Shown here: positions 901-39,517 of the stretch, piece by piece
Layout of the letters: every line of letters starts with the position of its first letter
How positions within the stretch are numbered: the stretch's first letter is position 1
Virus record (IMG/VR): IMGVR_UViG_3300025009_000241
Coordinates: 1 to 39,517 of that record
Length of the DNA: 39,517 nt
Reading direction: 5' to 3' (one strand)
From: a virus
Made by a program: the position numbers and the translations under genes
Notes under the pieces: generated by a model
Database searches by the model: none
Told to the model about the DNA's origin: nothing
The model's input: the letters and a program-made list of their open reading frames with translations, nothing else

Positions 901-906
901 ATAACA

Positions 907-950
907 AAACTCCCCTCGCCCAGACGCTATGCGACTGACCAGGGGAGTTT
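907..950 (-). terminator. Intrinsic terminator at the end of the late operon (left copy)
   Basis: AAACTCCCCT (907-916) pairs perfectly with AGGGGAGTTT (941-950). On the minus strand the stem is followed by TTTTGTTATT, as expected for a Rho-independent terminator. The plus strand also has a T-rich tail, so it may work both ways. It stands at the same place as the terminator at 38158-38175, although the stem sequence is different. Confidence 0.8.
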
Positions 951-1378: not shown

Positions 1379-1403
1379 TCTTCCCTAGCGCCTTCCTCAC
1401 CTG

Positions 1404-2968: not shown

Positions 2969-2978
2969 AACTCAACTC

Positions 2979-4301: not shown

Positions 4302-4370
4302 CCCAACCTCCACCAACAAGCAAATCCACCATAAGCGCCTGAACATGTCATATGCCGCCCCAAATCATTC

Positions 4371-9235: not shown

Positions 9236-9257
9236 CTTATACTCCTGTGTGATTTGA

Positions 9258-23543: not shown

Positions 23544-23552
23544 ACACGCTCC

Positions 23553-25131: not shown

Positions 25132-25143
25132 TTTTTATAGTGT

Positions 25144-25434
25144 TCAATCTGTAATATCTAAGTCGTCTTCTTTGTCCTCAATGTCTTTTTGCGTCCGCTG
25201 TATTCTCTGCTCAAGTGTCAATATCTCTTTTTCAGATTGCTTTTTGGAGAATCCGGCGGCGCGACAAGTAACATCCAATACAATGCCGGCGTTCTTTGTT
25301 GCGATAAGTTGCGCTGCCTGAGCGATAGAGGTTTCTGGAACGTCAAATATAAACACAATACCCCCATCAACAAGTGTCTTAACCTGTCTGACTGAGGCTG
25401 CAAAATGGATTGTGTTTTCTTGACTGTCTACCAA
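25144..25434 (-). CDS. Hypothetical protein with C-terminal coiled coil (96 aa)
   Basis: An N-terminal alpha/beta half (HFAASVRQVKTLVDGGIVFIF, ETSIAQAAQLIATKNAG) and a charged C-terminal coil (LEQRIQRTQKDIEDKEDD). The gene sits between the HNH gene and small terminase. No function is known to me. Confidence 0.65.
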   Translation of the reverse strand: MVDSQENTIHFAASVRQVKTLVDGGIVFIFDVPETSIAQAAQLIATKNAGIVLDVTCRAAGFSKKQSEKEILTLEQRIQRTQKDIEDKEDDLDITD

Positions 25435-25688
25435 TAACGCTCCTTGACCTTCAACCTCAATCCGCTATACCACTCCTGCATATCCGCCTCACCGTACTTT
25501 GCACACTGTATCTTCCACCATGATTCTTTGACCAGCCTTCCGCCTGTGCCTATCCATTGACTGTGACACTGCCGACAAACATTCCCGATATTGTGCGGGT
25601 TGTCTAACTCGCTATTATTCTTGTCGTGATTTATCAGGCAATGGTGGGGGTCGACTGCGTCACGGGCATGGCACCACTCACACCTCAA
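25428..25688 (-). CDS. HNH endonuclease next to terminase
   Basis: An 86-residue HNH protein with CEWC at the start, DPHH (the catalytic His region), NPHNIGNVCRQCH and a CxxC metal knuckle. HNH proteins beside terminase, as HK97 gp74, are needed for cutting concatemeric DNA during packaging. The start is TTG at 25688, overlapping the upstream TGA (TTGA). It is fairly small but complete. Confidence 0.88.
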   Translation of the reverse strand: MRCEWCHARDAVDPHHCLINHDKNNSELDNPHNIGNVCRQCHSQWIGTGGRLVKESWWKIQCAKYGEADMQEWYSGLRLKVKERYW

Positions 25689-25897
25689 AACGGTATATCC
25701 TCGTCGACTATCTCAGGCAGGTTGCCCCACATTACAGTTGCTTCCGGCTGCCCCCAAATATGCCCAAAGTGTCTTGACGCGTGACCGCGTTCCAACTCGC
25801 AGGGGATAACCTTGTCACCGATGGTATACGCGTCCTGGCATTTCACGGGTATGCGCAGTAAATCCAGCACGCGGTAATCTGCTGCTGTCTCGGTCAT
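25685..25897 (-). CDS. Hypothetical protein, 70 aa
   Basis: A 70-residue acidic protein with single Cys and His residues (KVIPCELERGHASRHFGHIWG). No family is recognised. Its start overlaps the holin stop (TAATG) and its stop overlaps the HNH start, so it is probably co-translated. Confidence 0.6.
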   Translation of the reverse strand: MTETAADYRVLDLLRIPVKCQDAYTIGDKVIPCELERGHASRHFGHIWGQPEATVMWGNLPEIVDEDIPF

Positions 25898-26271
25898 TAC
25901 TGAGCGCGTAACTCTTCAGCGCGTCCCCGGTTGAATTCGTCCATGACTGCCGCTTCGATCAAGTCTGCCAACTGTCCTAAATCAAACTTGATTTTCTTCT
26001 CGGTCAACCATTCAGACGCTAATCCAAGCGCATATTCCTTTTTATCAATCGCCAACTCCGCAAGGTTGACTTGCTCGGCTGCCAACACTGCGGAGCGTGC
26101 CATTTCCTGCATGATAGCCAACACGTCAAGATTCATGGATGCAGTCCACTTAGCCAGTAACTTCTTGACAATGGCGACCAGGAACACGGCTGCGGCAACT
26201 GCAAGAGGCGGGATTACAGCGTTGAAAAATAATTGTAAAAACTGCCAAAAGAAATCGGTCAATACTTCCAT
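25897..26271 (-). CDS. LLH-type phage holin
   Basis: A 124-residue protein with one strong N-terminal transmembrane helix (residues about 15-35, AVIPPLAVAAAVFLVAIV) and a long helical cytoplasmic part (MQEMARSAVLAAEQVNLAELA, then KEYALGLASEWL), the pattern of the LLH holin family (superfamily 6). It would make the membrane lesion that frees the endolysin. ATG at 26271 has GAGGAG five bases upstream; an upstream GTG is less likely. It stands apart from the endolysin, before the terminase genes. Confidence 0.8.
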   Translation of the reverse strand: MEVLTDFFWQFLQLFFNAVIPPLAVAAAVFLVAIVKKLLAKWTASMNLDVLAIMQEMARSAVLAAEQVNLAELAIDKKEYALGLASEWLTEKKIKFDLGQLADLIEAAVMDEFNRGRAEELRAQ

Positions 26272-26273
26272 AT

Positions 26274-26486
26274 TCACTCCTCAAAATTATTATCGGGATC
26301 CATATCAGAGAAAACTATCTCTCTGTCACACAACCGTTTTTCCTGTTCGTATTCGCGCTTTTTGTCACTCACTAAAAAACGTAACCATTCAGGCCAATCC
26401 TCGCTGTCACCGTAGATGGATTCACAAGCGGAGCATAGGTCATGTTTACCTTTTATCGGGTGATTACATACGCAAGTACGAAGCAT
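26274..26486 (-). CDS. Zinc-ribbon-like small protein (70 aa)
   Basis: Start ATG at 26486 is chosen because GGAGG lies four bases upstream. The first residues CVCNHPI and the later LCSAC give two Cys pairs (residues about 4-6 and 17-20). The C-terminal part is acidic (FSDMDPDNNFEE). It overlaps the sigma-like gene upstream. It could be a small transcription or DNA-binding cofactor, but there is no direct evidence. Confidence 0.6.
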   Translation of the reverse strand: MLRTCVCNHPIKGKHDLCSACESIYGDSEDWPEWLRFLVSDKKREYEQEKRLCDREIVFSDMDPDNNFEE

Positions 26487-26496
26487 TTGCCCTCCA

Positions 26497-26706
26497 CTAT
26501 TCATAGGCATCCTGACTGTGCATTTTGTAACGTAATTGGCGTAACCATCTTGAAATTGTCATTCCTGATACCCCCATCTTCGCCCCCACTTCGCGCTGTG
26601 AGTATCCCTCCATGTACATCACCATTGCGCTTTTGTGGCGCTCCGGCAATTCAGCCAGTACCGCGTCCATGTCAATCCTAAAATCTACGTGTTCAACTTG
26701 TCGCAT
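26497..26706 (-). CDS. Sigma-70 region 4-like HTH protein
   Basis: A 69-residue protein with the region 4 pattern: ELPERHKSAMVMYMEGYSQREVGAKMGVSGMTISRWLRQLRYKM (residues 19-62), a helix-turn-helix that in full sigma factors binds the -35 element. It lacks the region 2 for promoter melting, so it may be a phage regulator that works with host RNA polymerase, such as a late transcription activator. It lies soon after the 15-bp motif at 26957 and before holin and terminase genes. Confidence 0.78.
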   Translation of the reverse strand: MRQVEHVDFRIDMDAVLAELPERHKSAMVMYMEGYSQREVGAKMGVSGMTISRWLRQLRYKMHSQDAYE

Positions 26707-26721
26707 GTCCCTCCATATAGG

Positions 26722-26898
26722 CTAACCCTCTATCAAATAAGCGGCATAAAATACGAGAAAGACAATTATTGTCGCTATGCAGATGACACCAATAAACCCC
26801 GCGGCTTCTGCCCACCCTACTGTTATGCCCATTACTACAAATACCAATGTCGCCAAACTAATAAGGATTCCTATTCCTGTTAACTTTCTTTTGCTCAT
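26722..26898 (-). CDS. Small membrane protein with two helices (58 aa)
   Basis: The ATG at 26898 has GGAGGG close upstream and gives MSKRKLTGIGILIS. Two hydrophobic stretches (residues about 7-25 and 33-52) suggest a hairpin in the membrane. It could be an antiholin or superinfection-exclusion protein, but nothing beyond size and topology supports this. It is the first gene after the terminator-like hairpin and the motif. Confidence 0.6.
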   Translation of the reverse strand: MSKRKLTGIGILISLATLVFVVMGITVGWAEAAGFIGVICIATIIVFLVFYAAYLIEG

Positions 26899-26906
26899 AT
26901 CCCTCC

Positions 26907-26938
26907 AATCAAAAAGCCCTATCATCATGGTAGGGCTT
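26907..26938 (-). terminator. Intrinsic terminator or 5' hairpin before the late genes
   Basis: AAGCCCTA (26914-26921) pairs perfectly with TAGGGCTT (26931-26938); on the minus strand the stem is followed by TTTTTGATT. It ends early transcription or caps the leader that begins at the motif just upstream. Confidence 0.75.
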
Positions 26939-26956
26939 ATGTCACACGGTAGCAAT

Positions 26957-26971
26957 TATGCAAAATGGCAG
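26957..26971 (-). promoter_or_regulatory. 15-bp motif, copy 3 (before the late genes)
   Basis: Exact TATGCAAAATGGCAG, followed by TTAA as in the copy at 2528. The minus strand reads CTGCCATTTTGCATAAT, where GCATAAT resembles a -10. It stands at the border between the early genes and the sigma-like, holin and terminase genes, the natural place of a late promoter. Confidence 0.6.
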
Positions 26972-26988
26972 TTAATTAATGTCAGGGG

Positions 26989-27324
26989 TCATTTAGCCCT
27001 ACCGTCTTCAAAATATTCAAAATAAAATCTTCCGTCCCACCCTCTCCAATTGATCATGTCGTATTTTTGGGCAACTTTGAATATGTAAATTTTCTCTAAC
27101 TTACGAAGCATACCCTGAACGCATACCCTGAACGCTTCGATAGACTGCGCCCTCTTGTAGTGATTACACAATCGACAAGAGGGCATTAAGTTATCAATAT
27201 TATCCGTCCCTCCCGTGTGCTTTGACTGTTTATGGTCAACCTGCATTGTTTTCAAAGTTAAATCGTGTCCACAATATGCACAGCGGTTATTATATTTTTC
27301 GAGCACTTGCTGTCTGCCTATCAT
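26989..27324 (-). CDS. HNH endonuclease
   Basis: A 111-residue protein: RCAYCG at residues 17-22, DHKQSKHTGGTDNIDNLMPSCRLCN, an HNH core with a CxxC zinc knuckle, and a basic/aromatic tail. The start at 27324 overlaps the stop of the LuxR-type gene (ATGA), with GAGGTG five bases upstream. It is likely a free-standing nicking or cutting enzyme, either mobile or acting in recombination or packaging. Confidence 0.88.
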   Translation of the reverse strand: MIGRQQVLEKYNNRCAYCGHDLTLKTMQVDHKQSKHTGGTDNIDNLMPSCRLCNHYKRAQSIEAFRVCVQGMLRKLEKIYIFKVAQKYDMINWRGWDGRFYFEYFEDGRAK

Positions 27325-27629
27325 CCCTCCACCTCGATATACTCCCCTACATTTGCGTGTATCAGCCGTAACTCCACACACTTGGCAACCGCGCACGGGG
27401 TTGACTGCGCGTTTAGTTTCCGGTGTACACGCGCAACATAATTCTTCACCACGCCCCGGGATATCCGCAACCTTCGCGCAATGCCGTCAATCGTTACGCC
27501 GTCCGCTATCAGTTGCATCACCTGTCGTTCGCGCCGGGCAAGGGTGACGTTTATCCGCCGCCGTCCGCGTTTGTTGCGCCGTAACTGTGTGAACAAGGTT
27601 AAGTCGATCAATGTCGGGTTATCTAGCAT
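27321..27629 (-). CDS. LuxR/GerE-type helix-turn-helix protein
   Basis: A 102-residue protein with a GerE-like DNA-binding domain, residues about 28-85: LARRERQVMQLIADGVTIDGIARRLRISRGVVKNYVARVHRKL. The second helix of the HTH (ISRGVVKNYVARVHRKL) should contact DNA. There is no receiver or ligand domain. It lies just before the border to late genes, so it may drive the late switch along with the sigma-4-like protein. GAGGAG lies five bases before the ATG. Confidence 0.83.
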   Translation of the reverse strand: MLDNPTLIDLTLFTQLRRNKRGRRRINVTLARRERQVMQLIADGVTIDGIARRLRISRGVVKNYVARVHRKLNAQSTPCAVAKCVELRLIHANVGEYIEVEG

Positions 27630-28047
27630 TCATCCTCCTCATAGTTTCAGCGTTCCTCTTTTTACCAATCCAGAATAATCTTCGTCTCATTTCAGCGTCA
27701 ACCTCAACCCCGGCATACTTCAGGTACAACACCGCGCCGTCCTCTGCTCGCAGGAATTCACGCGCTTCAGCATCCCCATTCCTGGCGTCAATGATTGCCT
27801 TCGTGATTACCGCCGCCGCCAGATCCACCGCGATATATCCTGTCACAACTTCGCAAGCCTGCTTTTTCGTGTACTGCCTGGACAAGTCAATACGGTGTAG
27901 GATGGTGCAAGACGCGCATCTTTTGGCATTCCAATCCAGCCGCGAGTCAATCTCAAACCATGCACCGCAGTCGATACAATTCTTTTCTACCTTGCTAGGC
28001 TCAACCGTGAAGAAGTCAAGTTTCACAGATAGCGGATAATCCATCAT
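27619..28047 (-). CDS. Zinc-finger-containing hypothetical protein (142 aa)
   Basis: Cys pairs CIDC (about residue 24) and CASC (about 44) suggest a zinc finger, followed by helical residues and a basic end (IGKKRNAETMRRMNAR). The start ATG overlaps the upstream stop (ATGA); a second ATG follows directly. The product overlaps the LuxR-type gene start by 11 bases. No function is known. Confidence 0.65.
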   Translation of the reverse strand: MMDYPLSVKLDFFTVEPSKVEKNCIDCGAWFEIDSRLDWNAKRCASCTILHRIDLSRQYTKKQACEVVTGYIAVDLAAAVITKAIIDARNGDAEAREFLRAEDGAVLYLKYAGVEVDAEMRRRLFWIGKKRNAETMRRMNAR

Positions 28048-28376
28048 TCCCCCTCGCTCCTCTCCAAATACTGCTCAATCTCGGATAACGCGCTCCCGTC
28101 CTCGATTTCCTTACGGGTGTATTGCAGGTAGGTGAATCCCAAAAGTTGCGCCAGGTTAGCCTTCTCGTAGTCTCGGTGAATTCCCACTGAACTTGAATGA
28201 CCACTTTTCACCATCCATGTACCACCGTTGCATTCTACGATCAACTTCTTCCCGTCCGTGATAATACAGATGTCAGCGCGAAACTTCCGTGTTTCACAAA
28301 ACTTATACTCGCGGATAGCCTCGATCCCCACAGCGCGGAGTTGAAACTCTAGTGTGTCGGCAAGGTCAGGGGTCAT
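28044..28376 (-). CDS. PD-(D/E)XK-like nuclease (resolvase/Vsr-like fold)
   Basis: A 110-residue protein with FRADICIITDGKKLIVECNGGTW, i.e. D...(E)xN/K pattern of PD-(D/E)XK nucleases, then GIHRDYEKANLAQLLGFTYLQY, a segment shared with phage Holliday-junction-type or VRR/DUF559-like proteins. It probably cuts branched DNA made during replication or recombination; RecT and methylases are in the same early operon. It overlaps both neighbours by four bases. Confidence 0.75.
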   Translation of the reverse strand: MTPDLADTLEFQLRAVGIEAIREYKFCETRKFRADICIITDGKKLIVECNGGTWMVKSGHSSSVGIHRDYEKANLAQLLGFTYLQYTRKEIEDGSALSEIEQYLERSEGE

Positions 28377-28636
28377 TCTTCGCCGCCAATTGACTTAAGC
28401 GTTTCGGTAAGTTGCTCCGCAAAGAAGCCGTGATTCTGGATGATTGTTGCCCATTCAGATAATTGTTTTTTCATTCCTAAAATACAATCAGCCACGCGCC
28501 CCGGAATCTGCGCTACGTTCAATGAGCCACATGACGAACACATCCAACCTTGAAACGTATCCGGGTCAATAGGTACACACACAGTGTCGTTAATGTTTTT
28601 GCAATCCGGGCAAAAGAATTTCGGTAAGTCACTCAT
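28373..28636 (-). CDS. Zinc-ribbon small protein (87 aa)
   Basis: CPDC at residue 9 and CSSCG near residue 33 suggest a zinc ribbon, followed by a helical tail (ILGMKKQLSEWATIIQNHG). Start and stop overlap neighbours by four bases. One of a series of tiny Cys-pair proteins in the early region; the function is unknown. Confidence 0.65.
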   Translation of the reverse strand: MSDLPKFFCPDCKNINDTVCVPIDPDTFQGWMCSSCGSLNVAQIPGRVADCILGMKKQLSEWATIIQNHGFFAEQLTETLKSIGGEE

Positions 28637-29406
28637 TTTTCCGCCTTTGAAATCACCACTAATACCGCGTTTACTCCCGTTCCAGATTCCTTAAATGAAC
28701 CTTCTGGCAATGGCTCTGAATATCCACCTTTGCCACATAACCAGTTTCTAAACTCGGTTGCTTTTTTATCTTCACGGAAAAACGCCCCTGATGACATTAC
28801 AGATACCATGCGCCCACCCGGCTTTAGAAACTCGTAGGCGTGTTTTACGTGGTCAATATCCTGTTGATTTTCAAAGGGCGGGTTCATGTATATTTTGTCG
28901 TGTTCTGGTTCTGAACGTCTCTCAAGAAAATCATCTGTCATGGCAGTAAAATATTTTTTACCAACAAGTACATTCCTACGCTCTTGATTCTTTTCAAATA
29001 CAAGGATTTGTCTTGCCCCATGTTCCCGCAAAGCGTCTGCAATCGCCCCTAATCCCGCGGACGGCTCTAGAATATAATCATCCTCACTTACTGGAACAAG
29101 TTCAAGCATCCGCTCAATGACAGCGCGTGGCGTTTCAAAGAATCCGTCTCTTTCAACTTCCAATACGCCGTTTTCTAGCAACCCCTCAACTGACGGACGC
29201 GGGTCAGTCTGGAACAAATGACACCCGCTTTTCTTATTCCACTTTCCGCCCATTGCGTCGAGCGCTTTATTAACCTTTTCGTACATTTTACGGTCAAGTT
29301 GTCCGCAGGTAAGTTTTCCAGATAACCCATCGTTCGAAAATACCATACTGCGTAAATACCCTAAAACGTCATTGTCAAACCTTATTTGTTTTATCAAGTT
29401 GCTCAT
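28633..29406 (-). CDS. Adenine-specific DNA methylase (NPPF motif)
   Basis: A 257-residue protein: ILEPSAGLGAIADALREHGA is SAM-binding motif I, IYMNPPFENQQDIDHV is the catalytic NPPF motif IV for adenine N6, and FLKPGGRMVSVM is a later Rossmann strand. The N-terminal 70 residues are an extra helical part. The ATG at 29406 has GGAG four bases upstream; the longer frame is unlikely. It could protect phage DNA from host restriction; no partner restriction enzyme is seen. Confidence 0.88.
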   Translation of the reverse strand: MSNLIKQIRFDNDVLGYLRSMVFSNDGLSGKLTCGQLDRKMYEKVNKALDAMGGKWNKKSGCHLFQTDPRPSVEGLLENGVLEVERDGFFETPRAVIERMLELVPVSEDDYILEPSAGLGAIADALREHGARQILVFEKNQERRNVLVGKKYFTAMTDDFLERRSEPEHDKIYMNPPFENQQDIDHVKHAYEFLKPGGRMVSVMSSGAFFREDKKATEFRNWLCGKGGYSEPLPEGSFKESGTGVNAVLVVISKAEK

Positions 29407-29570
29407 TTCACTCCAATCTTTGCCAGTATCCATCTCAACAGTGTGACGCGACCTGTGATGTGGCAGTAATCGCACCATTGACTATCTCCGCCACATCCAG
29501 AATATCCAAATTCGTCAATGTAAATGGTGAGGATTTTCAGCGTTCCCTTACACTTCGGGCAAGTTATCAT
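29403..29570 (-). CDS. Zinc-finger small protein (55 aa)
   Basis: CPKCKG near the start and CDYCHITGR near residue 35 give a DnaJ-like Cys-rich pattern, often a zinc ribbon. It overlaps both neighbours by four bases (ATGA). ATG at 29570 is chosen because of this overlap. No function is known. Confidence 0.65.
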   Translation of the reverse strand: MITCPKCKGTLKILTIYIDEFGYSGCGGDSQWCDYCHITGRVTLLRWILAKIGVK

Positions 29571-29875
29571 TTGTCGCTCTCGATTTTCATAACAAACTGA
29601 TTCCATCGCCCTATGGCGATAACCTTTGTATGGCCATCAAAAGAATGATGTTCCCCGTCCGCATCCCACACCACAGAAATCCAACCGTGATTTAAACTAC
29701 CACACTGGCGTATGGTTGGAATCACATCACAATACGGTAATGGCACAATATCAGCAAACGGGCTCGGCGAATGTTTATCAATACATTCTGGACACTGGGC
29801 GATAGCACGAAAAATAACACTGTCTGGAATTTCATTTGTTACCGACTTCCCACACTCAAAACAAAATAGTCTCAT
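29567..29875 (-). CDS. Hypothetical protein with Cys pairs (102 aa)
   Basis: CFEC (about residue 5) and CPEC (about 28) suggest a zinc ribbon at the N-terminus, followed by a beta-rich part ending in a basic tail. GAGGAG lies five bases before the ATG; the stop overlaps the next gene. No function is known. Confidence 0.65.
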   Translation of the reverse strand: MRLFCFECGKSVTNEIPDSVIFRAIAQCPECIDKHSPSPFADIVPLPYCDVIPTIRQCGSLNHGWISVVWDADGEHHSFDGHTKVIAIGRWNQFVMKIESDK

Positions 29876-30096
29876 TTCTTCTCCTCTTCTAATTTAGCCA
29901 GCTCCGCCAGTTCTTCAGCGTTGAGGTGTCTCGCAAACTGATAGTATTTGATTACCACTTCGTCGCCATGACTTCCTCCGGTTCTGGCAAATCCACAAGG
30001 GACAAGCGCTTTATCAATTGCTTGTTCAATCATGTGAATAAAGTCAATATGATAGTTATTGCCGTTCGGTATCGTAACAATCAAATGGTCATTCAT
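29872..30096 (-). CDS. Hypothetical protein, 74 aa
   Basis: An alpha/beta protein (LIVTIPNGNNYHIDFIHMIEQ) ending in a charged coil (EELAELAKLEEEKK). No family is recognised. It starts four bases inside the stop of the small gene upstream. Confidence 0.6.
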   Translation of the reverse strand: MNDHLIVTIPNGNNYHIDFIHMIEQAIDKALVPCGFARTGGSHGDEVVIKYYQFARHLNAEELAELAKLEEEKK

Positions 30097-30266
30097 TTCT
30101 CCTCCAGTTTCTTCAACTCCGCCATAACCTCATCGCGGTTAGCCTTCCACCATTCGCTATCATGTTTCAGTATCATGTTGCGCCGGATCACTGCAATCTC
30201 ATTCGCAGTCGTGCCATTCTTGACCGCTACCGAGTAGTCTCTACGCTGTGCAGGGGTGAGAATCAT
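30093..30266 (-). CDS. Small basic helical protein (57 aa)
   Basis: A 57-residue protein: MILTPAQRRDYSVAVKNG, TANEIAVIRRNMILKHDSEWW, then a charged helix. The TANEIA segment could be a short HTH-like turn. AGGA lies six bases before the ATG; both ends overlap neighbours (ATGA), so it is a real gene despite its size. Function unknown. Confidence 0.7.
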   Translation of the reverse strand: MILTPAQRRDYSVAVKNGTTANEIAVIRRNMILKHDSEWWKANRDEVMAELKKLEEK

Positions 30267-30535
30267 TTAGAATCCTTTGGCAGTAACTTCAGTTTCTTTG
30301 CCATTTTGTTGTAAATATGAACATTGTCCATCAGTCTTTTTTCATCACTCGGAACTAAATATTCTCCGTCTTCCATCCAGACATGACCACAGTTCAGGCA
30401 TACGCTTGTATATCCGTGCCATTCTTCGTGAGCCAAGAAAAACAACTGTTTAGTCTTGCAAAACGGGCAATCATCCTCTTCTACTTTTTGCTCATCATAC
30501 CGAGCAAAACAAATGTGAACATTCGATATACTCAC
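30263..30535 (-). CDS. Zinc-ribbon small protein (90 aa)
   Basis: The GTG at 30535 overlaps the upstream stop (GTGA). The product has CPFC (about residue 24) and CLNCGHVW (about 46), a typical zinc ribbon, then a helix-rich basic tail (IYNKMAKKLKLLPKDSK). A longer reading frame starting at 30607 lies inside the upstream gene and is less likely. Function unknown. Confidence 0.65.
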   Translation of the reverse strand: MSISNVHICFARYDEQKVEEDDCPFCKTKQLFFLAHEEWHGYTSVCLNCGHVWMEDGEYLVPSDEKRLMDNVHIYNKMAKKLKLLPKDSK

Positions 30536-30900
30536 CTCTCCACCCCCTTCAGCGCTTCGGCTATCCGATTCCAGGCGAGGATTAATTCTGCTTCTGTCCA
30601 TCCCCATATTTCAATATTCAAATCTCCGTCATTAAACTTGGCATGTATCCTCATTCTATATTTGTCAAACTTCTCAATCTCCGGCAGCTTCCCCCACAAC
30701 GGCAGGGGTGACACAGGGGCGGTCAGGTCAGCGTAGCAGATGAAGCGGTGGTCGAACAAGATATCGTACCTATCTTGGCTAATAGCTTCAAATTCCCAAA
30801 CAAACGGTAATTTGTCATCAATATGCAATACTCGTAACCTCTTCCCCTTCACCTCTTGGAATGTCGGCTTCACGGTTGACCATACTAATTCAGTAGTCAT
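30532..30900 (-). CDS. Hypothetical protein, 122 aa
   Basis: A mixed alpha/beta protein with several Trp residues (VWEFEAISQDRYDILFDHRF, LNIEIWGWTEAELILAWNR). No family is recognised. GAGGAG lies five bases before the ATG; both ends overlap the neighbouring genes, so it is well placed in the early operon. Confidence 0.65.
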   Translation of the reverse strand: MTTELVWSTVKPTFQEVKGKRLRVLHIDDKLPFVWEFEAISQDRYDILFDHRFICYADLTAPVSPLPLWGKLPEIEKFDKYRMRIHAKFNDGDLNIEIWGWTEAELILAWNRIAEALKGVER

Positions 30901-31085
30901 TTTTGCTCCTCTGATAATTCGATAAGTTCCACGCGGTCTACGGTTGTTTTGTCATAAACATATTTGCAATTAGCGCCGTTGGTTATAATGATTACCGTGT
31001 CTCCGTACCAAATATCGCTTTCGTCATCAATGGGGTCGACAAAATCATTTGAACCACTTTTGAAGTAGATTACAGCGCGTTTCAT
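30897..31085 (-). CDS. Hypothetical protein, 62 aa
   Basis: A small beta-strand-rich protein (AVIYFKSGSNDFV, DTVIIITNGANCKYVYDK). It resembles early phage proteins of unknown role. Start and stop overlap neighbours (ATGA), with GGAGGGGG upstream. Confidence 0.6.
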   Translation of the reverse strand: MKRAVIYFKSGSNDFVDPIDDESDIWYGDTVIIITNGANCKYVYDKTTVDRVELIELSEEQK

Positions 31086-31369
31086 TCCCCCTCCTCTGGT
31101 GCAGCGGGGAGCAAGGCTTTCTCCGCTATCTTTACAGCATCGGTAAAGTGACCATAGAAATATCCTGTTATGGAAATGTCCATAATCTCCTTCAAAGCCG
31201 CGTGATACTTTTCATTCTCTGCCTTCACACGCTCCAACTCGGCATGACAAATTTCAATGTGAGAAAGCAAATAGGATACGTAGTCTTTAGAAGGAATATT
31301 TACATATCCATTATCTATGACTCGTTTCCAATGGTCGTGCAGATTTTGTTCGTATGCTATTTCGCTCAT
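31082..31369 (-). CDS. Hypothetical protein with central coil (95 aa)
   Basis: A helical protein (HIEICHAELERVKAENEKYHAALKEI) with an acidic C-terminus. GGAGAG lies five bases before the ATG. No function is known. Confidence 0.6.
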   Translation of the reverse strand: MSEIAYEQNLHDHWKRVIDNGYVNIPSKDYVSYLLSHIEICHAELERVKAENEKYHAALKEIMDISITGYFYGHFTDAVKIAEKALLPAAPEEGE

Positions 31370-31381
31370 TTTCTCTCTCCT

Positions 31382-31651
31382 CTATTCCTTCAACTCTGAT
31401 TGGATGCGGGATACCAAATCCTCACAAAATTCATACATATCATTCGCGCCACAGGTGCATTCTCGCTTAGAGAAGTTGTCACACCTTGTTGTATGATGAT
31501 CCGCCAACATTTTCTTTTCGTCTGCCATTCGACCAACCTCCCCCAGCAGTTCACGCAGGCGGGCGAGGTCGGCGCGGAGACGTTTCAATTCATCTTCCAT
31601 ATTGTCGCGATTGAATTGGGCTTTTACTGAATCTGGTATCCTGCTTCTCAT
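31382..31651 (-). CDS. Hypothetical coiled-coil protein with Cys motif (89 aa)
   Basis: A charged coiled coil (MEDELKRLRADLARLRELL) followed by a CECTCG-like cysteine region (KRECTCGANDMYEFC). AGGAGG lies seven bases before the ATG at 31651. No function is known. Its start overlaps the Lar-like gene stop. Confidence 0.6.
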   Translation of the reverse strand: MRSRIPDSVKAQFNRDNMEDELKRLRADLARLRELLGEVGRMADEKKMLADHHTTRCDNFSKRECTCGANDMYEFCEDLVSRIQSELKE

Positions 31652-31992
31652 TTCAACGCCTCCTCAACAATTCTTCTTATCTCAACGGCAAGATTGTTTC
31701 TCTCGTCTAGACTATCCTCATAAACCATATTTGATATACTTACAAGCGAACCCCGCAACTTCGCATTCTCGGCGCGGAGGGAATCTTCTAGCGGACGGGT
31801 GTTCCATTTGTCTTTTGCTTCTAAAATGCTATCGGGTAAACAAATTTCGTCTGGAATGTCAACGTATCCGGTTTCTGCTTCGCATATGTGACAAAAATAA
31901 TATACGGTTTGTATTGTTCCAGAATCGTAATCCTCTCTTTTTAGGCTTATATCTGCATTGCCGCAAAACGGACATTCTCTCAATTCACTCAT
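31648..31992 (-). CDS. Lar-like restriction alleviation protein
   Basis: A 114-residue protein starting MSELRECPFCGNADISL, with a second pair FCHICEAE and the EAKDKWNTRP segment. This CPFCG...EA..KWN pattern is that of Lar family proteins, which change the activity of host restriction-modification enzymes in some phages. The C-terminal coil is not part of the family. GAGGAG lies five bases before the ATG. Function in this host is inferred from family only. Confidence 0.75.
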   Translation of the reverse strand: MSELRECPFCGNADISLKREDYDSGTIQTVYYFCHICEAETGYVDIPDEICLPDSILEAKDKWNTRPLEDSLRAENAKLRGSLVSISNMVYEDSLDERNNLAVEIRRIVEEALK

Positions 31993-32067
31993 TCTCTCTC
32001 CTCAATCTAGCGTGGCAGAAGCGCCACATTCATAATACATCGTTTGCACACTGATTTCAAGTGGCAA

Positions 32068-32802
32068 TTAATGTTTGACATATTCCGAAAATTCATTATG
32101 GCGCGGACCTGATTCACGTTTGACTTTTGCCAGGATGATTGCACACGCCTGTTCAATACTCTTTGGTCCGGTTATCTTGTAATTCTTCTCGGATAACTCT
32201 GATACCGCTTGCGCCATGATCTGATTTGTTACCCCTTTATTTTTCATCGCCTGAAGTGATACATTCCAATCCTCTGGGTCACGCGGGGCTTGTAGTTTTG
32301 AGATTGATTCAAAAGCAGAGACGAGTGAAATGTCGCTGCCGTCAACTTCGACTTCTACTTGTTCTTCTTCTTCACTTAACTTCTCTTTACTTCCCTTAAC
32401 TTCAGCAGGCAAACTTCCGTCATTTTGTGGGCAATCTTCAGGATGTTTGCCAACATTATTTTCGGGTATTGAGGATTCTGGTTCTCTATCTTTTTTCATT
32501 CCAATTTGATGTTTTTCAAAATTTGGAAACTCAATAAATTTATCGCCGTCAACTTCATACCAAATAACCAGTCCTAAATCATGCCATTCCTGAATAAATC
32601 CCTCAACGTCTTTGGATGTTATTTTATCGTCAAGTCTTGGAAACACAAGTGATTTTACAATGGATGGATCCCCGTAGGTTCTACCCTCCCTATCGGCATG
32701 AACTATCAGCCATGTAAACGCCAACATAGACCAGGGAGAACTCAATTTATTTACCGCTTTATCAACGCATATTTCCTTTGACACAAACCTACCTCTAGCC
32801 AT
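32068..32802 (-). CDS. Replisome organiser-like protein
   Basis: A 244-residue protein with an N-terminal winged-helix-like domain (VNKLSSPWSMLAFTWLIVHADREGR, FIQEWHDLGLVIWYEVDGDKFIEFPNFEKHQ), the shared opening of phage replication initiators of the DnaD/replisome-organiser kind, an acidic linker, and a C-terminal helical part. It would open the origin and recruit host helicase. It follows the HNH-domain protein and overlaps its stop; GGAG lies six bases before the ATG. Confidence 0.78.
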   Translation of the reverse strand: MARGRFVSKEICVDKAVNKLSSPWSMLAFTWLIVHADREGRTYGDPSIVKSLVFPRLDDKITSKDVEGFIQEWHDLGLVIWYEVDGDKFIEFPNFEKHQIGMKKDREPESSIPENNVGKHPEDCPQNDGSLPAEVKGSKEKLSEEEEQVEVEVDGSDISLVSAFESISKLQAPRDPEDWNVSLQAMKNKGVTNQIMAQAVSELSEKNYKITGPKSIEQACAIILAKVKRESGPRHNEFSEYVKH

Positions 32803-33565
32803 TTAAAACTCCTTCCATCTCCTCAACCCAATACGACCAGTTTCCAGAAGATCGTATTATTCCCGCGAGTTCTTCTATTGATGTTCCCTGAAGATAGGCT
32901 TGCTCAAGATAACTCGTAGCACGATAATCTGTATAAAACTTTTTAGCCCTCATCATATTTACAAGCCTGTAAATATCCTGCATATAAGGCTTTTCAGATA
33001 ATAATTTTCTACTCTTGGCAATTCTTGGAATGTAATTTATAAACTTTTCGATAGAACTTTGAATTTGATTTCCGTCAATATTTAATAATATATATTGGTC
33101 TGCTGACAGGCTTGCACTTTCAAGCATTTCTGATAACCCATATCGCCTTAATGCAGATTTTAAATTTTGTTTTCCCGCATCATTTAGCGAAAACCCGTCC
33201 ATTCTGGAATTTATATAGTCAACAAGGTTGTTTAATTCTTGATCGTGTAAGTCATCAAGCCCGCCTTGCCACTCCATCATCATTTCAATTTGTTCGCGGC
33301 GCTCCTGGAGTTTGTCGAGTTGCGCTTTCCTTTTTAACATAACCGCGTCATCTGATAATTCGCGGTCACTTTTGCCACTATTACAATCAAAACAAGAAGT
33401 GATTAGATTTGTTATGTCGTTAGTGCCATTTTTTGAAACTGGCTTTATATGATCCGCTTGCAGTAAAACATCTGGAGCCGACCTACCACAATATTGACAG
33501 GTAAAACTATCGCGCTTGAATACCTCAAATCTTGTTTTCTTTGTTAGTGCTTTTCTTTCAGTCAT
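32795..33565 (-). CDS. HNH protein with long C-terminal domain
   Basis: A 256-residue protein. Residues 10-75 are an HNH domain: KRDSFTCQYCGRSAPDVLLQADHIKPVSKNG and CFDCN. The rest is helical with several charged stretches (EMMMEWQGGLDDLHDQEL; LSEKPYMQDIYRLVNMMRAKKF). Fusions of HNH to helical domains next to replication initiators are common in phages. It may nick DNA at the origin or act in recombination. GGGG lies five bases before the ATG. Confidence 0.82.
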   Translation of the reverse strand: MTERKALTKKTRFEVFKRDSFTCQYCGRSAPDVLLQADHIKPVSKNGTNDITNLITSCFDCNSGKSDRELSDDAVMLKRKAQLDKLQERREQIEMMMEWQGGLDDLHDQELNNLVDYINSRMDGFSLNDAGKQNLKSALRRYGLSEMLESASLSADQYILLNIDGNQIQSSIEKFINYIPRIAKSRKLLSEKPYMQDIYRLVNMMRAKKFYTDYRATSYLEQAYLQGTSIEELAGIIRSSGNWSYWVEEMEGVLNG

Positions 33566-33725
33566 TGTTACCCCTTAAAATAAATTCCCGCCGTCCACAG
33601 TTAGTATGATTGTCGAGGTCACACCTGGATAGCGGGAAATTATTTACTAACTCATAATGTAACCTCGACTGTATCAATCATACCACAACCACCGCGAAAC
33701 ACAACTACGTATTTAAGGCAATTGG
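33566..33725 (-). other. Intergenic region with long inverted repeats
   Basis: GTATGATTG (33604-33612) and CAATCATAC (33675-33683), with TCGAGGT (33613-33619) and ACCTCGA (33662-33668) inside, form a 16-bp stem with a six-base bulge. A second pair, TTCCCGC (33585-33591) and GCGGGAA (33632-33638), overlaps it, so the two folds exclude each other. On the minus strand the second ends in TTTATTTT, like a terminator. It lies between the methyltransferase and the HNH/replication genes, so it may be a switch or an origin. Confidence 0.5.
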
Positions 33726-34541
33726 TCATTGGGTGAATAAAGACTGTTGGTTTTGTTGTTTCTCCATCAGTTCCTTTGAATACCCGTTTGTCTTTATTTC
33801 GTCCCTGATACTCTTACATTCGTCAACCCACTTAACCGCGTCCTTGTAAAAGTTTTTCTTGATCTCGAATCCGTATCCTATCCTTCCGGTATTGTTTGCA
33901 GCAACCAGGGTTGAGCCGCTCCCCGCAACGGGGTCAATTACAACGTCCCCCTCGTCTGTAAAAATCCGTATTAGTTTTTCAAGTAATGCAACTGGTTTCT
34001 GTGTCGGGTGGATTTTCTTGTAAAGGTAGTCTTTATCATCCTCCCAATCCATGACGTTGAATACCATCTTTCCGTTGTTGTTGAACTTTGGAAGTTTTTC
34101 ACGGTAAAGAAGTAGTGCGTATTCAGCATTCCCGACAATTCGCATATTAGCCTTTAGCACCTGGGCAGAAAAGTTTTTACGAAAAACAAGATTGATATAG
34201 TGCTTTATTTCGTATTCTTTTGCCAGTTCGATCAAATAGAATTGCTGTTCAAAACTACAAAAGACAATCATGCAGGGAGCTTTACCCGTTTCCTTTGGTT
34301 CCTTTATCATTAGCCTATTACAGAAGTGCATAAACTCCGCGGGTTTGAAATTCTCATCTGTATCAAAGAATGACTTACCCGCTAAATCACTCGGGCCGTT
34401 TTTATTGTCACCGTCAATGTACCAGGATGGATTAGAACCATAAGCATTATTCCCTACGTTATAAGGAATGTCCGCTATAACCAGTTGAGCGCGTGGTATC
34501 TGATACCCCTTGAAATTCTGGAAGTGGTCATTGATGAGCAT
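33726..34541 (-). CDS. Beta-class DNA methyltransferase (complete copy)
   Basis: A 271-residue DNA methyltransferase. The N-terminal catalytic motif is ADIPYNVGNN (motif IV), and the C-terminal SAM-binding motif is VIDPVAGSGSTLVAANNTGR (motif I), so the motif order is that of the beta class (N4-cytosine/N6-adenine). HPTQKPVALLEKLIR precedes motif I as usual. It probably masks phage DNA from host restriction. It lies after RecT in the early operon; a diverged copy is cut by the left edge. Confidence 0.92.
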   Translation of the reverse strand: MLINDHFQNFKGYQIPRAQLVIADIPYNVGNNAYGSNPSWYIDGDNKNGPSDLAGKSFFDTDENFKPAEFMHFCNRLMIKEPKETGKAPCMIVFCSFEQQFYLIELAKEYEIKHYINLVFRKNFSAQVLKANMRIVGNAEYALLLYREKLPKFNNNGKMVFNVMDWEDDKDYLYKKIHPTQKPVALLEKLIRIFTDEGDVVIDPVAGSGSTLVAANNTGRIGYGFEIKKNFYKDAVKWVDECKSIRDEIKTNGYSKELMEKQQNQQSLFTQ

Positions 34542-34563
34542 TACTATTCCCTCTCCTCTGTAA

Positions 34564-34596
34564 CTCCCGGCTTTGATTCCCCATATTAGCCGGGAG
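34564..34596 (-). repeat. Inverted repeat between RecT and the methyltransferase
   Basis: CTCCCGGCT (34564-34572) pairs perfectly with AGCCGGGAG (34588-34596). There is no T-tract after the stem, so an RNA-stabilising or processing hairpin is more likely than a strong terminator. Confidence 0.6.
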
Positions 34597-34606
34597 CATG
34601 AAACGC

Positions 34607-35545
34607 TTATATACTCAGCTTCTTGAGTTCTGTGTAGGCAGCGTCAAAATCGCCGCCTGCTTGATTTAGAATATCTTGTCCTTTGACGTTGGATACATTG
34701 ACTGCCTTTGCCAATTCCCAGAACATCTTTGAGGTAATCTTGACTGGTTCATCAGCCTTTTCTTCAATTGGTTCTGGTTCATCCTGGGGAGGGGCATCAT
34801 CACCAAATCCCAGCGCTCGCATGTTTTCCTCAACCGAATGAGGTACAACTTCCTGGATTTCAACTCCGGTGATAAAGTCCTCTTCGTCTTCGGCTTCGGT
34901 CATGTTCATCATGTCAAACGGATCCAGATAACCCCATTTTTTAAGACCAAGTATCATCACGGTTTTCTTGAACATAACCGGGGGGTCTTTTTGCCACATG
35001 CTGTCGCGGCTGTTGTAAGACTTCGAGTATTTCTGACCGTGCGCTTCACACTCTTCATTGGTCATGTAAAACGTCTTTGAGAAGCCGCTCAATAACTGGA
35101 AGTAAAGCATGTAACCAACAACCTTACCGCTCTTGCCGTGTCGATCAATCAGGTAATTTCCGGTCATGGTATCTTCTTGGAGAATGTCGGAATCGTAAAT
35201 CGTTATCAGATTTATAAACCGATATTTCCCTGTTCGGATTGCCATGTGGTAAATGCCCCTCCATCCTACAATCAGGGTTGCTTTACCACCAAACGGTACA
35301 ATGTGCGCCTGACCTGTTGAGGGGTCAACCGACAATCGCATGGTTGCTGCTCGTAGTGCTGATGATATGATAGAGTTTGGATTGCAGTTCTGTAAATCCT
35401 TATTCTGTGCAACTGCAATTAACACGCTGGAAATGTAGCCCCCGGCGTTATTGTTACCAACCACTTCTGCAAAACGGCTGTTGATCTCGTTGCTTCGCAT
35501 AATGGCTTTCAAACTGTTTTCTTGCTTGACTGCTAATTCACTCAT
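34607..35545 (-). CDS. recT: RecT-family single-strand annealing protein
   Basis: A 312-residue protein of the RecT family: QNCNPNSIISSALRAATMRLSVDPSTGQAHIVPFG, LIVGWRGIYHMAIRTGKYR and a conserved MWQKDPPVMFKKTVMILGLKKWG segment. It anneals single strands during phage recombination and replication. No recE/exonuclease partner is clear; the 130-aa protein at 35559 lies in the usual place of one but does not look like it. The acidic C-terminal tail resembles that of other RecT proteins. GAGGAG lies eight bases before the ATG. Confidence 0.92.
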   Translation of the reverse strand: MSELAVKQENSLKAIMRSNEINSRFAEVVGNNNAGGYISSVLIAVAQNKDLQNCNPNSIISSALRAATMRLSVDPSTGQAHIVPFGGKATLIVGWRGIYHMAIRTGKYRFINLITIYDSDILQEDTMTGNYLIDRHGKSGKVVGYMLYFQLLSGFSKTFYMTNEECEAHGQKYSKSYNSRDSMWQKDPPVMFKKTVMILGLKKWGYLDPFDMMNMTEAEDEEDFITGVEIQEVVPHSVEENMRALGFGDDAPPQDEPEPIEEKADEPVKITSKMFWELAKAVNVSNVKGQDILNQAGGDFDAAYTELKKLSI

Positions 35546-35558
35546 TGCGTTTTCTCCT

Positions 35559-35951
35559 CTACTTGTCTAATTTGATTGTTGCGGTTGGGTCGGTCTTTGA
35601 CAATACAACTGGCTCAACCTTTGCTTCTTTACAGATTGCCTTGAAATCATAATCCGTTTCAACTGTGGTAAACTTAGCAACCACATCTGGAACCTCATCT
35701 GCAACGGCAGCCCAATCAGTTGATTCGCGCTGTGTTGCGTATTTCGACTTGATTTCATTTGACACAGTTGCGCATGGAGTAGTGTAATCATAAGTAGCGC
35801 GTCCGCCAGAATAAGTAACCCGAACACCCCCGACCACCTGTGTTTTTTCTAACTTCAAAACTTCGGCTTCAATCTCGCTTCCAAGAACGTCTAGAGACAA
35901 CTTATTCTTTTCCCACAACAATATCTTTTCTGCTAATTCTGATGCATTCAT
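35559..35951 (-). CDS. Protein upstream of RecT (130 aa)
   Basis: A 130-residue protein: helical start (ASELAEKILLWEKNKLSLDVLG), a beta part with TYSGGRATYDYTTPC and an end KTDPTATIKLDK. Similar small proteins lie beside RecT-like genes in some phages, without known activity. ATG at 35951 is chosen because GAGGAG lies six bases before it, whereas the ATG at 35957 directly abuts that site. Confidence 0.65.
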   Translation of the reverse strand: MNASELAEKILLWEKNKLSLDVLGSEIEAEVLKLEKTQVVGGVRVTYSGGRATYDYTTPCATVSNEIKSKYATQRESTDWAAVADEVPDVVAKFTTVETDYDFKAICKEAKVEPVVLSKTDPTATIKLDK

Positions 35952-35962
35952 TTTCATCTCCT

Positions 35963-36193
35963 CTAAATTGGTAATTCCTGTGCGTCAGTTGACGCAATAG
36001 CTGATAACGAATCCAGGTACGCTTGCGGTAAGTCAGCCTTCTCGATCTCCGCGCCGCACCTTCGGCAGAAGTAGAATATCCCTCCGCCGTGAAAACATAT
36101 CTCGCCTGATGCACCATCGAAGTATTCGACAGGCTCAACATAGTCAGCGCATATCAGGTCTACGGGGTGCTTGCATCGGATGTCAAACATCAT
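35963..36193 (-). CDS. Zinc-ribbon small protein (76 aa)
   Basis: A Cys pair FCRRCG near residue 44 and single Cys residues earlier (RCKHPV, LICADY) give a zinc-binding pattern. The C-terminal part is acidic. The start overlaps the upstream stop (ATGA). Function unknown. Confidence 0.62.
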   Translation of the reverse strand: MMFDIRCKHPVDLICADYVEPVEYFDGASGEICFHGGGIFYFCRRCGAEIEKADLPQAYLDSLSAIASTDAQELPI

Positions 36194-36465
36194 TCACCAT
36201 CCTCTACATTCACGCCGTTCAATTTGACATACATCATGTGGGCTTTGAGGTCAGCCTGCTTGCACAATTCTTCGTGTTCATTCATTGTGTCAATCATGTG
36301 GTAAGTTAGCCAGTAATCCACGTTATCCGTGTATTGTCGCCATAGTCTCTCGGCTTCTTGTTGCGCCTTGATGTATTCGACTTCCAGCGGAGCGCGGACT
36401 TTCGGCTTCAGGTCAGCCCATGTGTACGTGCGGTCGCGGTCAGAACATCCTATGCAGGCGGTCAT
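36190..36465 (-). CDS. Hypothetical protein, 91 aa
   Basis: A helical protein with CIGC at the N-terminus and long helices (EVEYIKAQQEAERLWRQY; NEHEELCKQADLKAHMM). AAGGAG lies five bases before the ATG; both ends overlap neighbours. Function unknown. Confidence 0.62.
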   Translation of the reverse strand: MTACIGCSDRDRTYTWADLKPKVRAPLEVEYIKAQQEAERLWRQYTDNVDYWLTYHMIDTMNEHEELCKQADLKAHMMYVKLNGVNVEDGE

Positions 36466-36902
36466 TTCGACTCCTTGTCAAATCTTTCCCAACACTTGTT
36501 TTTAGTCGGGAAACTAGCACATGCACTAAAGCTTCCGCAACCAGCGCACTCATCCCATTTTGGCTTCTTATCATAATCTGCGGATTGATACCACCACGCA
36601 GGACAAGTAAACTTTCGCATTTCAGATTTGTGAGGGAATTTCTCGCCATCCAACCAATTGGTATAAGGCATTCCACCAAAGTCCATTTTACCGCCAGTTA
36701 TAATGCCGGGGTTTACCTCAAGTATTGTGTGAATTTTTGCATCCCCCCGTTGTTCAAACTCCTCGTATTCGTGAGTAAACTTACGCTTGCCCATGCCTTT
36801 GCAGTCTTGACAAACAACGCCGTAACCGTCACGCTCTGCCATTCCCACATAAACACCCGTACCCTTACACGATTTACATTTTTCAATCAGTTCAATCTTC
36901 AT
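36462..36902 (-). CDS. DnaJ-like zinc-finger protein (146 aa)
   Basis: CKSCKGTGVYVG and CQDCKGMG are the two halves of a DnaJ-type CxxCxGxG zinc finger at residues 9-40. The C-terminal part adds more Cys residues (CPAWW, CAGCGSFSACASF). Function is unknown; DnaJ-like fingers often bind single-stranded or unfolded partners. GAGGAG lies six bases before the ATG. Confidence 0.7.
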   Translation of the reverse strand: MKIELIEKCKSCKGTGVYVGMAERDGYGVVCQDCKGMGKRKFTHEYEEFEQRGDAKIHTILEVNPGIITGGKMDFGGMPYTNWLDGEKFPHKSEMRKFTCPAWWYQSADYDKKPKWDECAGCGSFSACASFPTKNKCWERFDKESK

Positions 36903-36988
36903 CGTTTTCTCCTCTCAAAATATTCAACTAATCCAGCCAGCCCAAGCGCCAGTAGTATCAGAACGTAGCCTAACACGATTGCGGGCAT
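36899..36988 (-). CDS. Tiny membrane peptide (29 aa)
   Basis: MPAIVLGYVLILLALGLAGL is one hydrophobic helix, followed by a VEYFERRKR basic end. The ATG overlaps the stop of the RHH gene (TAATG) and its own stop overlaps the next ATG, so it is translated by coupling. It may be a toxin-like or membrane-anchoring peptide; function unknown. Confidence 0.65.
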   Translation of the reverse strand: MPAIVLGYVLILLALGLAGLVEYFERRKR

Positions 36989-37254
36989 TATTCGTATCCT
37001 TTGTCACTGCCGACAATCTCAATGTCATTGACGTCATGCACCAGGCTAACGTGCGGCTTCTTGTCCGCAAACATCTTGTCGATGCGGTCATACATTGCGG
37101 TGCCGGATGAAGGGATCTTGCCAATGACGGGGATCTGAGCAACCAGACGGCGGACTGCTTCAGACAATCCAACGCCTTCGACTGAAGCGTATGCCTCAAG
37201 TCTATCTTTCAATTCCTGATCCATTCTTACGATTACCGTTTGTGTTTTAGCCAT
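36988..37254 (-). CDS. Ribbon-helix-helix (CopG/Arc-type) regulator
   Basis: An 88-residue protein with an N-terminal RHH fold: KTQTVIVRMDQELKDRLEAYASVEGVGLSEAVRRLVAQ (residues 3-40), where the VIVRM strand would enter the DNA major groove and the two helices make the dimer. The C-terminal part is short and acidic. It is the second early gene, close to the box and palindrome clusters at 37680-38045, and is the best candidate to bind them. GAGGAG lies four bases before the ATG. Confidence 0.85.
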   Translation of the reverse strand: MAKTQTVIVRMDQELKDRLEAYASVEGVGLSEAVRRLVAQIPVIGKIPSSGTAMYDRIDKMFADKKPHVSLVHDVNDIEIVGSDKGYE

Positions 37255-37306
37255 GTTACTCCTCTCGTTTGATTTTCGCGTGTACCATGCGCGACCCGGA
37301 TTGACA

Positions 37307-37501
37307 CTATCGGATATTGTGTGCTGCTTTCAATATTGCTTTTCCTAATTTAATGGACTGTTCTTTGTTCATGTATACAAATGCGTCTGCCTTGTGTCCC
37401 ATGCGCTCGCTAGCCACTATAACAACAGAATCTGGCGTATTTGAAACTGAGATTTTTTCGTCCTCAAAAATACCTTCGATTGTTTCGTGTGTAATTTTCA
37501 T
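37307..37501 (-). CDS. First gene of the early operon, hypothetical (64 aa)
   Basis: A 64-residue alpha/beta protein (VVIVASERMGHKADAFVYM, then a basic amphipathic helix QSIKLGKAILKAAHN). It is the first gene reached from the operator region. GAGGAG lies eight bases before the ATG. No family is recognised. Confidence 0.62.
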   Translation of the reverse strand: MKITHETIEGIFEDEKISVSNTPDSVVIVASERMGHKADAFVYMNKEQSIKLGKAILKAAHNIR

Positions 37502-38105
37502 TTTGTTTTCTCCTCTTGTATGCTTACATTATTACACAATGTAATACACTTGTCAATACCCCAATTTCCACCAGTTTCCACCATCCCCCTCCGTGTTCTC
37601 GGAATGCTATGCGATATGCTGGCCAAGCCACCAGGATTGATTCTAATGCGCGTAAACCATTAGCGTGTATGTAATTTGATGCGAGAAGTTATCAACTTTG
37701 ATAACAATTGGCAATAGATTATCATTTGGTACTAAAAAGTGGTACTAAAGTATAATACGAACTGACAAAGGATATTTGACAGTTGCCTATTCCCCCTGTC
37801 TACTGGAATATAACAAATTTGTTATGTCCCACTTGTGATCCACAGCCGGATTAGTGTCTCACTTTGTTTCAATTATTGTAAAGTTTTGAAACGGGATTAT
37901 AAAGCATTTCAATTTTCAACATTTGTTGAAATGCCGGAGTGAGCATCCGAGAAATGAAGCACACGTTAGGATTATTATAAACATGATTATTAAAGCCCAC
38001 ACTTATCATACATAGATCAGTGTCAACCCTCACATTTATCGAACGAAAGTGTGTGACATCTGTGGTACAAATACCGCCATTGTACCGTCCGAATTAGCGT
38101 GAATT
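37502..38105. promoter_or_regulatory. Operator/promoter region of the early operon (right copy)
   Basis: About 600 bases without genes. It has the TTATCAA-CT-TTGATAA palindrome (37689-37704), TGGTACTA boxes 13 bases apart (37727, 37740), a perfect 16-base palindrome ATAACAAATTTGTTAT (37810-37825), TGTCYCAC repeats (37825, 37855) and CACAYTTATC repeats (37998, 38031). The same spacings of 30 and 33 bases occur in the left copy at 267-900. An extra stretch of about 58 bases separates the TGGTACTA boxes from the palindrome here. Minus-strand TATACT may be a -10 element. Confidence 0.6.
37689..37825. repeat. Palindrome and box cluster (right copy)
   Basis: Contains the TTATCAA/TTGATAA palindrome, two tandem TGGTACTA boxes and the perfect ATAACAAATTTGTTAT palindrome. 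Elements and order match 646-749, with changed centres and an insertion. This shows that the arms, rather than the whole sequence, are kept. Confidence 0.65.
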
Positions 38106-38136
38106 GAACAAACTCCGAGAATTGACAAGTTTGTTC
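38106..38136 (-). repeat. Inverted repeat next to the terminator
   Basis: GAACAAACT (38106-38114) pairs with AGTTTGTTC (38128-38136), giving a 9-bp stem just past the terminator in the direction of late transcription. It may be a back-up terminator or a site in the operator region. Confidence 0.55.
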
Positions 38137-38157
38137 AGCGTATGGATGTAAACAAAA

Positions 38158-38175
38158 ACACCCCCGAAGGAGTGT
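38158..38175 (-). terminator. Intrinsic terminator at the end of the late operon (right copy)
   Basis: On the minus strand ACACTCC-TTCG-GGGGTGT forms a 7-bp stem (one T-G pair) with a stable UUCG loop, followed by TTTTTGTTT. It occupies the same position as 907-950, so the terminator is kept by place and not by sequence. Confidence 0.85.
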
Positions 38176-38388
38176 CTTTGCGTTGTGGCCGCTAGTTTTA
38201 CGTCTTGGCGCTACGCGAATCTACAACCACTGGCAAATGTGGAGGATTTCTACCCACCGGCAGGGCATAGTCAAATAGTTCAGGCAGCCACGCCTTTGCG
38301 ACCAACTTCCCTCAAACTCACAACTGATCGGACAACTCATTTGTATACCGCCAGTCGTCATGGCTTGGTTAGCGACATCATCGCTAGT
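38176..38388. other. Non-coding 3' region (right copy)
   Basis: About 210 bases between the tRNA-like element and the terminator. A 46-codon minus-strand frame (38221-38361) rich in Cys has no ribosome binding site. Otherwise nothing recognised. Confidence 0.45.
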
Positions 38389-38460
38389 TGCTCCGAGAGG
38401 GAATCGAACGCCTCGTTCTCCGCCTAGAATGCACGGGCTTTGCCACTTAGCTATCGGAGC
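38389..38460 (-). tRNA. tRNA-Arg(UCU)-like gene, with imperfect stems
   Basis: The 72 bases fit cloverleaf geometry: acceptor GCTCCGA/TCGGAGC (7 bp), D-arm GCT...AGC with an AGTGGCA loop, anticodon loop ATTCTAG (T33, anticodon TCT, A37), T-loop TTCGATT and discriminator A. No CCA is encoded. The anticodon stem and the T-stem each have two mismatches, so it may be degenerate, a tRNA-like processing signal or a tRNA needing editing. It lies after the metallophosphoesterase on the right copy only. Confidence 0.6.
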
Positions 38461-38535
38461 AGTCTTGCGATCGTGTGGTTGATTGGAACCACATAAATAT
38501 TATTGCACGACATTTTTCATTTGTCAAGTAGCTGC

Positions 38536-38566
38536 GGAGCGCCGCCCTTTCGGGTTACAGCGCTCC
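38536..38566 (-). ncRNA. GNRA-capped hairpin (right copy)
   Basis: On the minus strand GGAGCGC/GCGCTCC encloses a UGUAA bulge and the apical CCC-GAAA-GGG. The cap and UAA are shared with 1193-1221 while the lower stem differs, keeping pairing. It lies between the metallophosphoesterase and the tRNA-like gene. Confidence 0.6.
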
Positions 38567-38616
38567 ATTTTACCGCACGTTGGCGGGCAGTACAACGGGG
38601 AATGACCCCGGTGGTG

Positions 38617-39517
38617 CTACTCCTGTGGAAACACCATGCCACTGAACATATCATTGGCCGGGCTTACCGCGCTCGGATTGTGTATCAATGGAGCAACTTC
38701 GATATTATTCACGTTTTTCTCTTTAGCGGTTCCACCGCCGTTTGTCACGGTAATAAAGCAGCCGCCCATGGGTTTGGGAACGCCGCCCCGCGTGACTTCC
38801 CAACCAGTTGACCCGTCACCGTAAGACTGGCAATATCCTGGCGTTCTTACGTGGTGCTGTGTGTCAAAGTAATGCGCCCCCTTGTTGCTCAATCTTTCAC
38901 GAGTTATCGGTATCCAGTAAGCGTTGTGTGAATGACCATTGATAACCACGTCTGCATCAGGAAGGTACACGGCTTGTCTATTGGTTTGGATTGCACCCCT
39001 GGTTACTGGAGCCTCACCGCCTGACCCGTGAAAATATTTGATCCTGACCGTTCCCTCGAAGCGGTTGTTATTTCGCATCATTACCCGTATCCATCCACCA
39101 TAACCGCCGTGTAGGATATTCCCCCCGCGTGCATTCAGCGCACTAACTAGCCTGTCAGATAGATAGGTATTCGCGTTCTTTAGGACTGATAACTCGTGAT
39201 TGCCTGGGGTGATTAGTACAATATTCTTTGCGTATTTCTCCAGTTGATTAGCCGAATCCAATACCACATAATCGTAGTAATCAGGACGGCGGTATTCAGG
39301 ACGTAACGAACTCATATCCCGGCGCGGGTCAAATCTACCATTCATTGCATCGTAGAAATCACCCACTATAACGATTGCGGCATCTTGACTTATTGCTGTA
39401 TCCAGATCTTGAAAGAATGCTTTGCGATTGCAGTACACGCTGTCGAAATGCACGTCTGATGTGAAAAAGAATTTCTGTTCTGTGCCGTCAATTACAAAAG
39501 TGGTAATAGCCCCAACT
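38617..39517 (-). CDS. Metallophosphoesterase, second copy (N-terminus cut by window edge)
   Basis: In frame from the right edge, with the same motifs as 1550-2512: DVHFD, GDFYD, GNHE and GHSH. The C-terminus differs (FSGMVFPQE instead of YAQDIG). The last 127 bases (39391-39517) are identical to 2330-2456, while the rest shows scattered substitutions. What follows the stop is also different: tRNA-like gene here, two tiny protein genes there. The start codon lies outside the window. Confidence 0.9.
   Translation of the reverse strand, partial: VGAITTFVIDGTEQKFFFTSDVHFDSVYCNRKAFFQDLDTAISQDAAIVIVGDFYDAMNGRFDPRRDMSSLRPEYRRPDYYDYVVLDSANQLEKYAKNIVLITPGNHELSVLKNANTYLSDRLVSALNARGGNILHGGYGGWIRVMMRNNNRFEGTVRIKYFHGSGGEAPVTRGAIQTNRQAVYLPDADVVINGHSHNAYWIPITRERLSNKGAHYFDTQHHVRTPGYCQSYGDGSTGWEVTRGGVPKPMGGCFITVTNGGGTAKEKNVNNIEVAPLIHNPSAVSPANDMFSGMVFPQE

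Follow-up and report, generated by a model that had tools for sequence, protein, structure and literature searches.

A 127-base repeat at the end of a viral contig is very probably an assembly-graph vertex shared by sibling phages

The 127-base repeat at the right end of the IMG/VR virus record IMGVR_UViG_3300025009_000241, the whole 39,517-nucleotide stretch of which is the window analyzed here, is very probably a vertex of a de Bruijn graph with k = 127 at which two sibling paths merge, and thus an ordinary assembly artefact. Artefacts of this kind are already known, and the repeat is not a biological feature. The last bases of the window match an internal segment without a mismatch, and the maximal exact match is 127 bases long: the preceding base is T at 39390 and A at 2329, and on the other side the window stops. 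The identity of 39391–39517 to 2330–2456 and the differing adjoining base, both reported in the original prediction, were reproduced by self-comparison of the window. The 127-base repeat is the longest exact repeat within the window; the next exact matches at the same offset of 37,061 are 74, 35, and 29 bases long.

Table 1 Features of the window that bear on the 127-base repeat
Feature	Position	Strand	Basis
Right copy of the 127-mer (putative graph vertex), end of incoming path B	39391–39517		Exact match to 2330–2456
Left copy of the 127-mer, start of the putatively shared onward segment X	2330–2456		Contig 3300025154_000408 ends exactly here
Left tip A: putative alternative (sibling) right end, ~88% identical in the gene, without ~2.7 kb including recT	1–2329		Self-comparison
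Right end B: methyltransferase start, recT module, intergenic repeats, phosphoesterase gene	34327–39390		Self-comparison; Pfam, PHROGs
Segment X, full-length identity to IMGVR_UViG_3300025154_000408	2330–23662		21,333 bases at 100%
Second 127-base vertex, far end of X, common to sibling contig 3300025154_000882	23536–23662		Maximal common suffix of 127
Left copy of the calcineurin-like phosphoesterase gene, complete (320 aa)	1550–2512	-	Pfam PF00149
Right copy of this phosphoesterase gene, truncated at the window end	38617–39517	-	With 2457–2512, intact 318-aa frame

The gene that holds the 127-mer encodes a calcineurin-like phosphoesterase (PF00149; PHROG 7339), and the protein of the left copy scores 34.2 bits against the Pfam family (cut-off 21.5). 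Outside the 127-mer, the two copies of the gene are about 86% identical (109 mismatches at 770 aligned sites), in agreement with the earlier statement that the remainder of the gene is merely similar. The probability that 127 bases contain no mismatch is 1.5e-10, as computed with the codon-position mismatch rates from the rest of the phosphoesterase gene. The stretch is free to vary, because the sibling contigs G002 and G003 differ from the 127-mer at 13 and 14 of its 127 positions, respectively. These sibling differences together with the calculated probability rule out sequence constraint as the cause of the identity.

The similarity between the two ends of the window extends past the phosphoesterase gene. 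In the self-comparison, positions 1–209 resemble 34327–34535 (84%), and positions 668–913 resemble 37686–38116. Therefore, the whole left end (1–2456) corresponds to the right end (34327–39517) in a diverged form, from which about 2.7 kb are missing. The right version contains the recT gene and its neighbors (34607–37254), which are missing from the left version, where the start of the DNA methyltransferase gene directly adjoins the intergenic region (1–667 compared with 34327–37686). The sibling contigs G002 and G004 retain several of the recT neighbors, and no match to the RecT protein of the window was found in them. The segments 668–913 and 37686–38116 are intergenic, without a long gene, and contain short blocks that are well conserved between the two versions and in G002, G003, and G004. 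It is possible that this intergenic region is a control region.

A scan of IMG/VR with the 127-mer matched one contig, IMGVR_UViG_3300025154_000408, which is identical to segment X over its entire length and has its terminus exactly at the first base of the 127-mer. A scan with the far end of this contig identified a sibling contig from the same metagenome, 3300025154_000882, which also ends at 23662. The maximal common suffix of contigs 408 and 882 is exactly 127 bases, and the base before it is A in one and G in the other. Contig 882 is otherwise identical to part of the sibling phage G008 (3300025000_000166), and its long matches to the window are 80–87% identical. The window shares 128 bases (23536–23663) exactly with the same sibling phage, which marks a second ambiguous junction. 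This junction is located inside the gene for the terminase large subunit (23553–24797), so the phase across that gene is uncertain.

Segment X is bounded by 127-base graph vertices at both ends. The occurrence of exactly 127 shared bases at two distinct breaks points to a k = 127 graph, the value of k for the assembly of the window being read from the 127-base overlaps themselves. One fixed length that is a usual k recurs at two sites, contigs end on it, and the paths differ directly beside it. In the study of COBRA, in which the largest k of the metaSPAdes runs was 127, contigs from metaSPAdes and MEGAHIT that break at branch points are reported to share end sequences of length maxK (PMC10914622). 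The right end of the window resembles those maxK ends in its exact stretch of the largest k, in the termination of the contig, and in the branching paths (PMC10914622). Unlike in those cases, one of the two k-mer copies here is internal to the contig itself, since the path had traversed the vertex before. The original prediction that the right edge is the merge point of a variant path at k = 127 is borne out by the break of contig 408 at this position and by the second 127-base vertex at 23662. The end of G004, which is inside the same phosphoesterase gene, shares 135 bases with G002, not 127. Searches of viral contigs with the sequences just outside the 127-mer on the A and B sides, and with the left edge of the window, gave no match; among the viral contigs searched, no separate contig corresponded to either of the incoming edges. 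None of the genome contigs searched matched the last 34 bases of the window.

The arrangement is best explained if two paths derived from sibling phages enter the vertex, one being the left tip A and the other the right end B. The two paths would be identical for 127 bases inside the conserved phosphoesterase gene and then continue as one shared segment X (from 2457 onward). In this account, the assembler would have written A, X, Y (from 23663), and B, and halted at the vertex that it had already used. The window would then represent one turn of a 37,061-bp circular map, with an alternative entry path of about 2.3 kb from a sibling at its left. We infer from the sequence a graph with two edges in and one out, in which A and B would be on different molecules. 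The divergence of the two paths, the single copies in relatives, and the many siblings at these sites suggest that A and B originate from sibling phages, as the original prediction considered possible. The odd piece is more simply the left tip (1–2329), because 2330–39517 closes a complete circle; this refines the original prediction, in which a strain variant rejoined the main path at the right edge.

Joining 39517 to 2457 converts the right copy of the phosphoesterase gene into an intact frame that has the same ATG as the left copy, and the resulting unit is 37,061 bp long. The genes of G004 are in the same order as those of the window between 24790 and the phosphoesterase gene (24790–39453). 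G003, which shares an identical overlap of 2,948 bases with G004, extends across the gene to homologues of 2979–4346 and 4371–6566. The two contigs originate from different metagenomes (3300025000 and 3300025009) and represent one lineage by identity, not one assembly. Together, they provide a sibling gene order that crosses the proposed 39517–2457 join with a single copy of the phosphoesterase gene. The alignments of G003 and G002 with the window span the gene as far as position 2487, and that of G003 goes on into 2957–3564 and 4287–4351; past the repeat, these relatives resemble the sequence after its left copy. The previously proposed circular map of about 37,061 bases is backed by this synteny and by the restored reading frame at the join. 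IMG/VR classes the record as linear, but it probably represents a closed circular map. GenBank phage records contained no match to the DNA of 36001–39517, and only weak matches to the protein encoded by 2979–4346.

An exact overlap of k length probably also marks circular closure in contigs such as G010 (L109, L110; IMGVR_UViG_3300009320_000053), the only one of the relatives read to both ends that has a terminal self-repeat. Its 119 bases at 1–119 and 39532–39650 are identical, and this end repeat probably reflects the closure of a circular contig at a k-mer rather than a terminal repeat of biological origin. The overlap of G010 joins both ends of the contig, whereas the window has the 2.3-kb sibling path before the left copy, and tests for end repeats therefore miss its closure.

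The same vertex could be read differently, with A and X forming the main molecule and Y and B belonging to a sibling, so that 2330–39517 would be chimeric and the 37,061-bp circle would not be one genome. Ambiguous vertices flank X at both 2330 and 23536, so that X, Y, and B are probably, but not certainly, parts of one molecule. The shared stretches at these vertices, 127 bases at 2330 and 127–128 bases at 23536–23663, are short and permit wrong pairing of paths. However, the homology between the sibling phage G008 and the window extends across 23663 (22106–24101), which is compatible with the X–Y connection being right, and the closed circle needs no added assumption to explain why the contig ends. 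The chimeric arrangement is unlikely, but it is the most serious of the competing explanations.

Far less credible is a real second copy, in which one phage molecule carries two diverged methyltransferase-to-phosphoesterase regions at the edge of the early region, and recent gene conversion has made a tract of 127 bases identical between them. The reading frames of both copies are intact (the right one after the join), and the break of contig 408 alone does not exclude two real copies, because a vertex with two edges in and two out would likewise start that contig at 2330. However, the tract would have to measure exactly 127 bases and stop precisely where the window does, and this length recurs at the unrelated junction at 23662. 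Sibling contigs pass from the right-end genes through one copy to genes of the left part, and every relative record that carries the phosphoesterase gene has one copy of it; since most relatives are fragments, single copies per record say less than single copies per genome would. A 127-base direct terminal repeat of biological origin, suggested by the copy at the contig end, is rejected as next to impossible: the other copy is internal at 2330, there is no prefix–suffix match, the first bases of the window recur nowhere in it, and the sequences upstream of both copies are homologous but diverged for kilobases, unlike those of terminal repeats.

In the late gene region of the window, 8859–9244 and 12523–12905 have 65% DNA identity to each other, and these segments are possibly related domains of two structural proteins.

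Under the preferred explanation of a graph vertex at which sibling paths merge, the genome size would be about 37.06 kb, not 39.5 kb. It would be wrong to count the 2.3 kb at the left as an additional set of genes of this phage, or to treat the two phosphoesterase copies as paralogues. Screening contigs for a terminal k-mer with a second, internal occurrence could reveal other near-complete phage genomes that are missed by simple end-repeat tests.
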